Shown: positions 1-37,130 of the stretch, piece by piece
Layout of the letters: each line of letters opens with the position of its first letter
Numbering within the stretch: position 1 is the stretch's first letter
Assembly: GCA_015069615.1 (NCBI GenBank)
Contig: SVIF01000003.1
Span: 1-64,000 of the forward strand
Source of the DNA: Clostridiales bacterium
GTDB lineage: Bacteria > Bacillota > Clostridia > Christensenellales > Borkfalkiaceae
Length of the DNA: 64,000 nt
Direction: 5' to 3'
Made by a program: the position numbers and the translations under genes
Notes under the pieces: model-generated
What the model was told of the DNA's origin: nothing
Seen by the model: only the letters and a program-made list of their open reading frames with translations
Databases searched by the model: none

Positions 1-117
1 GGTTTCTCCTTAAAACTTGAAATTTTTTGTTTTTTTATAAATAAAATTGTAGCACAATATGATAAATATTGCAAGTGTATAAAAGAAAAATTTGTTTTTA
101 CCCAAAACGCCTTTGGT

Positions 118-30276: not shown

Positions 30277-30429
30277 TTTTTATTCTTCTTCACGGGGACT
30301 TTGCGCTTTGCAAAGCCCCCGTGGTATTTTTAGTGGTATTTTTATTAGTCGCACGCGCATATAGTGTAAAAAGTAGAACGAAGTTTATGCGCCACCGACA
30401 GATGTCGCCGATACACACCAAAAAGGTGG

Positions 30430-30543
30430 TGAAGAAACAAGTTATGCAAGGCTCGCTGGGAATTTGGGGTGAGATGAACCTTGGGGGTTATCGAAGTCCA
30501 AATTTACAGCAGAAACGAAGCAGAACGAAGTTTATGCGCCACC
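30430..30543. repeat. Dispersed hairpin repeat family 1, copy A
   Basis: AAGGCTCG...AATTTGG-30 nt-CCAAATT; aligns with 30706-30800 and 42732-42836. Confidence 0.8.
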
Positions 30544-30547
30544 AAAA

Positions 30548-30650
30548 AGGCGGCATAGTTACAAGCAAGACGAGGCAAACGCGGATTTCGGAAAGGCGCA
30601 TACCACTTGGTATGTAACTGCACCGAAAACGCAAGTTTAACAATGTATTG
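30548..30650. repeat. 103-bp dispersed repeat family 2, copy A
   Basis: Identical to 30883-30985. Confidence 0.9.
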
Positions 30651-30705
30651 TGATGGTACAAACCACCGAAAAAAGACACTTGCACGCCACCAAAGGTGGT
30701 TTAGA

Positions 30706-30800
30706 AGCAAGCGATACAAGGCTCGCTTAGGAATTCAGGCGAGATAAACCTTGTTGGTTATCGAGATTGAATTCCGTAGCAGAAACGCAGTAGCGCGCCG
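30706..30800. repeat. Dispersed hairpin repeat family 1, copy B
   Basis: GAATTCA-30 nt-TGAATTC at the same offsets as copy A. Confidence 0.8.
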
Positions 30801-30882
30801 TAAATATGCCGCCGCAAGCAAAAGGCGGGCTAGAAACAAGCGATACAAGGCTCGCAAAAATTTGGAGTTCAACAACCCACCA

Positions 30883-30985
30883 AGGCGGCATAGTTACAAG
30901 CAAGACGAGGCAAACGCGGATTTCGGAAAGGCGCATACCACTTGGTATGTAACTGCACCGAAAACGCAAGTTTAACAATGTATTG
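30883..30985. repeat. 103-bp dispersed repeat family 2, copy B
   Basis: Identical to 30548-30650. Confidence 0.9.
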
Positions 30986-31026
30986 CGCCGTAAATATGCC
31001 GCCGAAAAAAAATGAAAAAATTTTTA

Positions 31027-33937: not shown

Positions 33938-34022
33938 CCCCAACCAACCAAAACTAACCCTTATCAAGGGTTAGCCCTAAAACCGAATTGCATTTTTACA
34001 AAAAAGCGAATTTTTTCTTAGA

Positions 34023-34062
34023 ACGCAGGGAGTGTGGAAAACCACACTCCCTGCGTAATTTT
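34023..34062. terminator. Terminator-like hairpin ACGCAGGGAGTGTGG...CCACACTCCCTGCGTAATTTT
   Basis: Perfect stem; outer stem shared with 23356-23402. Confidence 0.8.
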
Positions 34063-34079
34063 GTAAAACGTTATACCGA

Positions 34080-34117
34080 CACGCGGGGCATGTGGGAAAT
34101 CCCACACGCCCCGCGTT
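34080..34117. terminator. Terminator-like hairpin ACGCGGGGCATGTGGG...CCCACACGCCCCGCGTTT
   Basis: Near-perfect stem between convergent genes. Confidence 0.7.
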
Positions 34118-34208
34118 TAAGGAGAAATCCGTTTAGGGAAAACTTGTAATCAAACCTAAACGGAAGTAGTATAAACAAATGCTTTTACACGGCTTTGCCC
34201 GTTTCGCG

Positions 34209-36230
34209 TTAAAACACGTTGTTTAAGGCGGCTTCCGCTTGCTTGTTCGTAGCGTCGTTCAAGCATTTTAATTCGTAGAATTTGCCTTTCTTTTCCATCA
34301 GTTCTTCATAACTTCCCGTTTCGGCAATTTTGCCCCCTTCCATAACCACGATACGGTCTGCATCCCGAATGGTGGAAAGGCGGTGCGCCACGATAAAAGT
34401 GGTACGCCCTTTTACCGCCCTTGATATCGCTTGTTGCACGTGGTATTCGGAAACGTTATCTAAGGCGCTGGTGGCTTCGTCTAAAATCAAAAGAGAGGGG
34501 TTACGAATCAGTGCACGCGCAATGGTTACGCGTTGCTTTTGCCCGCCCGAAAGTTTGCCACCGTGTTCGCCCACGCTGGTGTTTAACCCTTCGGGCAGTT
34601 CGCTGATAAATTCGGTTAGGTTGGCGGCTTCTACCACGCGGTTTAGGTCTTCTTCGGTATATTTATCTAAGCCGTAGGTAATGTTTTCCCGAATGGTGCC
34701 GGGGAACAAAATACTATTTTGCGGAACCACCGAAATGTGGTGGCGGTATTCGGTTAAATTTAGGTCGGTAAGGGGAACGCCGTCTATTTTAATGCACCCT
34801 TTTTCGGGGGTTAAAAAGCCGATAATCACGTTCATCAAGGTGGACTTGCCCGAACCCGAGCTACCCACCACCGCAATACATTCGCCCGCATTTACCTTTA
34901 AGGAAAAATCCGAAACCACGGGTTCTTCCATACCGGGGTAGGTGTAGGTAACGTGTTCAAACTCTACGTCCCCCCGAACGGTGGTGGCGTTGTTTTTGCC
35001 CAAGGAGTACTCCATATCCGTGGAGGACATAATTTCCCCAATGGAAGTAACCGCTTCCAGCCCGTGGGTAATGGCGGGAACGCAATGCACCAAACCGATT
35101 ACGTTTGCGCTTAGCGTGGAAAATAAGCTTTGGAATAATAGCACGCTACCAATGGAGATTTTGCCCGCAACGGCAAGGTAAATACAAAACAGTAAACACC
35201 CTGCGTTGGTGGTTGCCGAAACCACCCAAAGGGCACTTGCAAACCAGCAGTTGGTTTTATCCAACGCGTATCCGCTACCCGAAAGGGTTGCAATTTCGCG
35301 GTGCATACCCGAAAATTCGCGCTGTTCTAGTCCGTGCGCCTTGGTTACGGGTAACATTTCCAGCATGGTATTCATATGGCTACTAACCGTTTCGTACTTT
35401 CTTCTAAAATCCCTGCTACGCTTGGCAATGCCCGTCCAAAGAACGCGCGAAGCCAAAACGTTGATGGGAACCACCAAAAGGAAGAATAGCGCCACGGTGC
35501 CACTTCTATTAACGGCTATCGTTGCCGAAACGATAACCGCAATAAAGCCGGGGATTAACTGATCCACAAGAACGGAAATTAGGGAATCCACGCTTTCGGT
35601 ATCTTTAATAAATTTACTTTGAATTTTGCCCGTTTCCATATCCTTGTGATAGGTAATGGAAAGCCCTTGCAGTTTTCTTACCACCGCGCTTCTAACCCCT
35701 GCGGAGGTGGTTCTTCTAAGCGTGCTGGAAAAATGCTGTTCTAACGAATAAGAAAAGGGGTTTTGTACGATAACGATAATTAAAAATAGAACGTTCCACC
35801 CAATGGAATTCCAAATGGCGTCCGTAATACCCCCAAGGGAAATGGCTTTTTCCGCTAAGTCGATAAGGTTGGCGGAAACAAGCGGAATTGCCCAAGAAGG
35901 GATGGATTTAATGGTAAAAAACAGGCAAGAGAGAAAAATCATCTTCCAGTTTAACCTGAAAAACTTTTTCAAAAAGCCGTTGCCACCCCGCTTTCTTTTT
36001 CCGTTTGCGCTTTCCTCTTGTGTAAAAAGCGCGTCGTATTGGGGAATGTACGCGTCAGTTCTTTTTAAAAACTTTTCCGCTTTCTTTTGCTCTTTTTCTT
36101 CTTGTAGATGTTTTTTGTGCTGCAGTTTTTCGCTTTCGCGCAGCACTTTTTCTTCTTGCTTTACGTGTTGCTTGGTTTCCTTTTGTTTCGCGCTTTCAGG
36201 CGAAACGCTTCGTCGGGGAAGGGGTTCCAT
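34209..36230 (-). CDS. ABC transporter, fused permease-ATPase (exporter type) with K/E-rich N-terminal extension
   Basis: VGSSGSGKSTLMNV, LSGGQKQRVTIARALIRNPSLLILDEATSALD, six-TM N-terminal half. Confidence 0.93.
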   Translation of the reverse strand: MEPLPRRSVSPESAKQKETKQHVKQEEKVLRESEKLQHKKHLQEEKEQKKAEKFLKRTDAYIPQYDALFTQEESANGKRKRGGNGFLKKFFRLNWKMIFLSCLFFTIKSIPSWAIPLVSANLIDLAEKAISLGGITDAIWNSIGWNVLFLIIVIVQNPFSYSLEQHFSSTLRRTTSAGVRSAVVRKLQGLSITYHKDMETGKIQSKFIKDTESVDSLISVLVDQLIPGFIAVIVSATIAVNRSGTVALFFLLVVPINVLASRVLWTGIAKRSRDFRRKYETVSSHMNTMLEMLPVTKAHGLEQREFSGMHREIATLSGSGYALDKTNCWFASALWVVSATTNAGCLLFCIYLAVAGKISIGSVLLFQSLFSTLSANVIGLVHCVPAITHGLEAVTSIGEIMSSTDMEYSLGKNNATTVRGDVEFEHVTYTYPGMEEPVVSDFSLKVNAGECIAVVGSSGSGKSTLMNVIIGFLTPEKGCIKIDGVPLTDLNLTEYRHHISVVPQNSILFPGTIRENITYGLDKYTEEDLNRVVEAANLTEFISELPEGLNTSVGEHGGKLSGGQKQRVTIARALIRNPSLLILDEATSALDNVSEYHVQQAISRAVKGRTTFIVAHRLSTIRDADRIVVMEGGKIAETGSYEELMEKKGKFYELKCLNDATNKQAEAALNNVF

Positions 36231-36302
36231 ACGCTCCTAACACTCCTTATTTTTCGGCTGATTTTATAGCCGTTTTTTTGCAGAAAATTTTCCCGCGGAT
36301 AG

Positions 36303-36336
36303 AAAAAACCCTACTCTTTTTTGAGTAAGGTTTTTT
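36303..36336. terminator. Short intrinsic terminator-like hairpin in the ABC exporter leader
   Basis: ACCTTACTC-AAAAAA-GAGTAGGGT-TTTTT on the minus strand (one G-T pair). Confidence 0.7.
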
Positions 36337-36346
36337 GCTTGCACAC

Positions 36347-36375
36347 GTTATACCATATGCGAAACGGAAAGTCAA
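36347..36375 (-). promoter_or_regulatory. Promoter TTGACT-17-TATAAC for the ABC exporter
   Basis: Hexamers with 17-bp spacing on the minus strand. Confidence 0.7.
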
Positions 36376-36411
36376 TACCTTTTTTCAAAATTTTTGAAAA
36401 ATTTTTTGCGC

Positions 36412-36580
36412 CCAAGCAAGACAAGGCAAACGCGGATTGGCCGACGGGCGCATACCATTTTCCCCCGTAACGAATCAAAACCGAGCAAGACAAGGAAGCC
36501 GAGCCCTTTGGGGCGGAAGTATACTTGCCGTATTCGACGGTCCAAACGGCGACGGCTGACACCGTATTGCGCCGCGTTAT
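36412..36580. repeat. Dispersed intergenic repeat related to family 2 (CAAGCAAGACAAGGCAAACGCGGATT...GTATTGCGCCG)
   Basis: Shares start and end motifs with 30548-30650. Confidence 0.65.
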
Positions 36581-36596
36581 CATCCATTACACGCAA

Positions 36597-37096
36597 AAAG
36601 GGGGCGTTTTTCAGCCCCCCCTATATATCTACCGTATTTAATTGTGAAGGATAGGTTTTCCGCGTTTCCCCGTTTTCCCTTACTTCACGCTTGGCCTTCT
36701 TGCCAAAATACCGGGTAATTTGCGTTTTTATCCTTTTAAAATATGTGCCATTGGACCGTACCCCCTAAGAGATTTTTCTACCGTAAATCTTTTTCATTAC
36801 GGTAACCTCCATGGACTTTTTCTTCCCGAAGAACTCTTCGGCGTTTTTGCTTGCGCACCGCTTTCCGTAAGCCTACTGCTTTTGTTTTTCGGAGCTTTGT
36901 ACGCGCGTTTCCATTTTATTTACTATAAAAGGCTTTTTGTTTCTTTGCGGAGACTGCCGCATCATCTTTTAACTAGTTGGGTGGTCTAGCCCTCCTTACG
37001 TTTTTTAGGGAATGAATTCTTACTTCATTGGAGTGTTCTCCTTTTTTATATTTTTTGTAAGATTTTATTGCATCGGAGTGCTCCTCCCTTTTTCTG
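36597..37096 (-). ncRNA. Candidate ~500-nt structured non-coding RNA, unclassified
   Basis: Consensus promoter 37130-37102, GC-rich terminator 36597-36619, no long ORF on its own strand, several hairpins and a predicted pseudoknot. Confidence 0.5.
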
Positions 37097-37101
37097 ACTA
37101 C

Positions 37102-37130
37102 ATTATATCATAGGAATAAAATGTTGTCAA
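37102..37130 (-). promoter_or_regulatory. Consensus promoter TTGACA-17-TATAAT (minus strand)
   Basis: TTGACAACATTTTATTCCTATGATATAAT. Confidence 0.88.

Follow-up and report, generated by a model that had tools for sequence, protein, structure and literature searches.

What is made from the stretch of minus strand between a diacylglycerol-kinase-like (DagK) gene and an ABC exporter, where a promoter and a terminator enclose nothing that resembles a protein gene? At 37102–37130 (−) of the window, by which we mean the whole 64,000-nt stretch of DNA that was analysed, we observed a sigma-70-type promoter that agrees with TTGACA-17-TATAAT at 12 of 12 consensus positions, as the first-pass annotation had claimed, and that carries a TG before the −10 box, making it an extended −10 site. 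Exact TTGACA-16..18-TATAAT sites occur five times in the window versus none in 100 shuffles, and the remaining four lie ~20 to 140 nt upstream of plausible gene starts. Because all four precede genes, the orphan unit is probably transcribed as well; judged from the sequence, exact sites in this genome are good indicators that a transcript is really made. The GC-rich hairpin with a T-run described for the other end is also present, as the putative intrinsic terminator GGGGGC-TGAAAAAC-GCCCCC-TTTTT at 36595–36619 (−). Its stem consists entirely of G-C pairs and is followed by T5, yet it is absent from the list returned by a consensus scan, in which the number of terminator-like sites in the window is not enriched. 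With the start placed at 37095, 7 nt past the −10 box, the predicted transcript spans 36595–37095 (−), or ~490–500 nt.

The unit looks free-standing, as had been proposed. Upstream, the DagK gene has a terminator-like hairpin of its own, and the ABC exporter downstream is served by a promoter of its own (TTGACT-17-TATAAC, 36375–36347, −), the second promoter that the first reading had placed between the unit and the exporter. Its own promoter and terminator, together with the lack of a long ORF, are the features by which an independent small RNA is recognised, and the sequence supports a free-standing transcription unit that has neither a known RNA family nor a convincing protein.

The judgement that the unit holds no convincing protein stands: within it, no ORF on the minus strand reaches 40 aa. 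The best synonymous-codon score, obtained over 36966–36624, is −0.06 per codon, where true frames range from 0.07 to 0.31 and wrong frames from −0.34 to −0.01 (5–95%), and genome-like codon use is absent from every frame of the unit. One frame deserves mention, as it runs from the ATG at 37073 to a TAG at 36624, is interrupted only by TAA and TAG, never by TGA, and ends right at the terminator; a TGA-free run of equal length occurs in 31% of shuffles. We considered recoding of TAA and TAG as glutamine, which would open a 233-aa frame, but that frame has neither relatives nor a codon signal, and recoding was dropped because 27 of the 36 long genes of the window terminate with TAA. The read-through product has no relative in Pfam, PHROG or NCBIfam, nor by tblastn. 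Neither of the two marks of a protein gene or a recent pseudogene, genome-like codon use or a homologous protein, was found.

The local hairpins that had been pointed out are present, GCGG-CAGTCT-CCGC at 36960–36947 (−) and TTGGC-AAGAA-GGCCAA at 36706–36691 (−). At 36770–36805 (−), TACCGTAA and TTACGGTA can form a hairpin with a possible 4-bp pseudoknot, AGAT/ATCT. The H-type pseudoknot proposed there does not rise above chance, since a 6-bp plus 4-bp H-type arrangement occurs in 12.7% of shuffles; an 8-bp hairpin such as this one occurs in 5.2%. The unit as a whole folds with z = −3.4 (−2.5 once the terminator is removed), and 12 of 128 window stretches of the same size fold as well with the terminator and 28 of 128 without it. 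Fold and pseudoknot are both at background level, so structure gives no reason to propose a new class of RNA.

Nor does the unit match a known class, in agreement with the earlier reading, which could not match it to common RNAs. A cmscan against Rfam, whose families include ROOL, GOLLD, OLE, raiA, 6S, RNase P, tmRNA and SRP, gave nothing in the unit at gathering scores and only tRNA-Leu in the whole window. Relaxing the filters and accepting E up to 10, with 521 or 901 bases as query, brought only chance-level matches in the unit, and ARAGORN found no tmRNA in the window. The 6S RNA (RF00013) of this genome is on another contig (C14), outside the orphan unit, which would share with 6S RNA independent transcription and a non-coding character but does not match its model. 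ROOL, GOLLD and OLE (PMC12286853), like raiA, are also independently transcribed, hundreds of nucleotides long and without a long ORF; they differ in being conserved families with covarying structure, whereas the orphan unit has no model match and no detected homologue.

Conservation in relatives had been named by the first-pass annotation as the test of its own reading, and as far as this test could be run the result was negative. Searches with blastn found no second copy in the unit's own genome and no homologue in the same-genus genome, where the one match falls in a galactokinase-like gene. In 150 other genomes of the family and 395 others of the order we obtained only short patches, many of them in ORFs or A-rich leaders. 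One 32-nt match at the order level (L130) pairs KKPFLVNKKE with KKPFIVNKME in frame; the similarity ends there and was taken as chance. A single-sequence covariance model of 36905–36770 retrieved nothing convincing from 250 family genomes, and phage and plasmid collections yielded nothing. Synteny gave the same picture, in that the unit was not seen at the DagK-homologue or ABC-exporter-homologue loci examined, where other genes adjoin; in the same-genus genome another gene comes directly after DagK, and a scan of GTDB contigs for DagK returned only three loci, at 43–49% identity. The genus sample comprises just two genomes, both incomplete (86% and 79%) and with no more than 60% identity between their DagK proteins, a sampling in which an RNA that evolves fast could escape notice. 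No homologue was found on which purifying selection or covariation might be demonstrated, and a conserved structured RNA of the ROOL, OLE or raiA sort is not supported.

The 5′ end of the unit holds a feature that the first reading overlooked. Two Shine-Dalgarno hairpins, each followed by a two-codon ORF, lie at 37087–37065 and 37041–37020 (−), in the arrangement AGAAAAAGG-GAGGAGCACTCC-G-ATG-CAA-TAA ... AAAAAA-GGAGAACACTCC-A-ATG-AAG-TAA. The first comprises hairpin GGAG-GAGCA-CTCC (37075–37087, −) and ORF ATG-CAA-TAA (37065–37073, −), and the second hairpin GGAG-AACA-CTCC (37030–37041, −) and ORF ATG-AAG-TAA (37020–37028, −). The layout is the one usual at the start of mRNAs in this genome, with a short leader, a Shine-Dalgarno sequence and an ATG, except that the frame ends after two codons, twice. 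A similar G-rich/C-rich element, GGAGGGCTAGACCACCC, lies at 36979–36995 (−) with no ATG right behind it, and in the minimum-energy fold it may pair with hairpin 1. A weaker third copy, at 36764–36749 (−), repeats hairpin 2 at 75% and forms the leader of a further mini-ORF. A simple origin for the paired hairpins would be that one copy was duplicated in tandem.

Within the 1.43-Mb genome, the pattern GGAG-N(3-6)-CTCC-N-ATG has two matches, both in the orphan unit and 46 nt apart, and the reversed-pattern control has none. A pair of GGAG/CTCC Shine-Dalgarno hairpins appeared in 0 of 2000 shuffles of the unit, and 4 of 2000 had at least as many Shine-Dalgarno sequences with very short ORFs as observed; because the motif was picked after the sequence had been seen, these shuffle statistics are weakened, whereas the side-by-side position of both genomic copies is unaffected. 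The minus strand here is rich in A and G, a composition that favours Shine-Dalgarno-like sequence. With the two-codon ORF included, more than one match occurs only in this genome among the 398 of the family. The family total is 6 versus 11 for the reversed-pattern control, so the motif is not a family-wide element, and single matches in family genomes were dropped as relatives for want of any excess over that control. In viral contigs two exact patterns had no match, and a tandem pattern had one, judged to be chance. As a separate observation, GGAG-loop-CTCC-A-ATG-NNN-TAA also occurs in two gene leaders (loci L119 and L120, around position 1500, in family genomes G330 and G012), and the products of both genes start like secreted proteins.

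The reading that we prefer, though only tentatively, is a lineage-restricted small RNA gene of ~490–500 nt, non-coding or nearly so, with ribosome-binding mini-ORFs at its 5′ end. The RNA would be made from the exact promoter to the terminator. Ribosomes would bind at both 5′ sites and depart after reading two codons, and the occupied sites could shield the 5′ end from decay, by analogy with Bacilli and with axe-txe. The RNA level might then track free ribosomes and the opening of the GGAG/CTCC hairpins, while the remaining roughly 400 nt would serve as non-coding RNA, in the simplest case by base-pairing to targets. In Bacilli, untranslated RNA is stabilised by a 5′-proximal hairpin or by a strong Shine-Dalgarno sequence, even one that lacks a start codon (PMC3997798), and expression of txe is raised in cis by a two-codon minigene, possibly through mRNA protection (PMC8708949).

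Both precedents resemble the orphan unit in part. The 5′ stabilisers of Bacilli (the aprE, gsiB, ermC and cryIIIA leaders; PMC3997798) share the 5′-proximal hairpin, the strong Shine-Dalgarno sequence and the fact that translation of the body is unneeded, but they protect mRNAs, whereas the body of the orphan unit does not look protein-coding; any stabilisation here would be by analogy. As in axe-txe-type minigenes, a Shine-Dalgarno sequence stands at proper spacing before ATG-NNN-stop, and the two-codon ORFs end in TAA, are two in tandem and lie in an A+U-rich leader. The axe-txe type regulates, in cis, the gene that follows it, whereas the orphan unit has no protein-like frame before its terminator and, unlike minigene regulators, places each Shine-Dalgarno sequence in a GGAG/CTCC hairpin. 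Given the absence of a downstream gene, we do not file the unit as a member of the axe-txe type; it is at most similar in one step.

The explanation that competes most directly with a small RNA gene is a decayed or never-functional locus, either a former small gene that has lost its frame or neutral sequence past a promoter, whose transcript has no function. The promoter, Shine-Dalgarno and ATG succeed one another as in normal genes here, the TGA-free frame from 37073 to 36624 finishes at the terminator, no homologue turned up in any sample searched, structure is at background level and dispersed repeats are piled up directly downstream. Yet nearly a third of shuffles yield such a frame by chance, and this one has no codon signal or protein relative; promoter and terminator are both intact, where decay should also bring frameshifts and promoter loss, and the tandem motif occurs nowhere else in the genome. 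We consider such a locus rather unlikely, although the mRNA-like 5′ end and a frame that ends right at the terminator keep it in serious consideration. Translation itself could instead be what matters, in a dual-function or polycistronic transcript encoding MQ, MK, MKKIYGRKIS, MAHILKG and a 30-codon ORF, MMRQSPQRNKKPFIVNKMETRVQSSEKQKQ. GGAG precedes 37073 and 37028, and GGAGG and GGGGG lie at the usual distance ahead of 36797 and 36751, the predicted starts of mini-ORF 3 (MKKIYGRKIS, 36765–36797, −) and mini-ORF 4 (MAHILKG, 36728–36751, −); the ATG of mini-ORF 3 also sits within the 8-bp hairpin at 36770–36805 (−). The shorter peptides, at 2 to 10 residues, are of no recognisable type and are not conserved, and the 30-codon stretch does not show gene-like codon use, which makes functional micro-peptides a distinctly less probable account of the locus.

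A divergent ROOL, GOLLD, OLE, raiA, 6S, RNase P or tmRNA overlooked by the Rfam models would fit the size of the unit and its own promoter and terminator. The permissive search gave no credible match, the genome's 6S lies elsewhere, and the cross-species conserved blocks typical of such classes were not found here, and we regard this as the most improbable of the explanations. Scarcely more probable is an RNA acting in trans, in which the tandem minigenes with sequestered Shine-Dalgarno sequences would capture initiating ribosomes or tie up tRNAs by peptidyl-tRNA drop-off; if true, the product would be an RNA that senses or damps translation, not an mRNA or antisense RNA.

Returning to the lineage-restricted small RNA, we see a real-looking, lineage-specific orphan intergenic unit with tandem minigenes as its one odd feature. 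To our knowledge, two-codon minigenes of this kind are described as cis-acting leader elements. If those of the orphan unit are functional, their presence on a free-standing RNA that has no gene to control would broaden the cis-acting minigene concept; as it stands, the locus is one further intergenic orphan unit, from a Clostridia lineage that has not been cultured.

Several features of the surrounding DNA were also observed. The predicted transcript of the ABC exporter has an attenuator-like hairpin, ACCTTACTC-AAAAAA-GAGTAGGGTTTTTT, right after its promoter (36375–36303, −), and 36251–36400 folds on the minus strand with z = −6.6. At the 3′ end of the exporter, toward FeoB, 34001–34466 folds well beyond shuffled sequence, with z of −7.8 and −7.2 on the two strands, which suggests a long inverted repeat. 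Dispersed intergenic repeats of two types, A and B, occur in the window at 36412–36597 and 30400–31000, and at loci L093–L113. Type A is about 120 nt long (36479–36597) and has about 8 copies in the genome; type B is 44 nt or more (36412–36456) and has over a dozen, some in arrays. Both types are bordered by sequence resembling GGCGG-TTAGAA-C-AAGCAAGACAAGG and, on the 3′ side, by sequence resembling AGTATTGCG..TTATAAACCGCCG, and their interiors differ.
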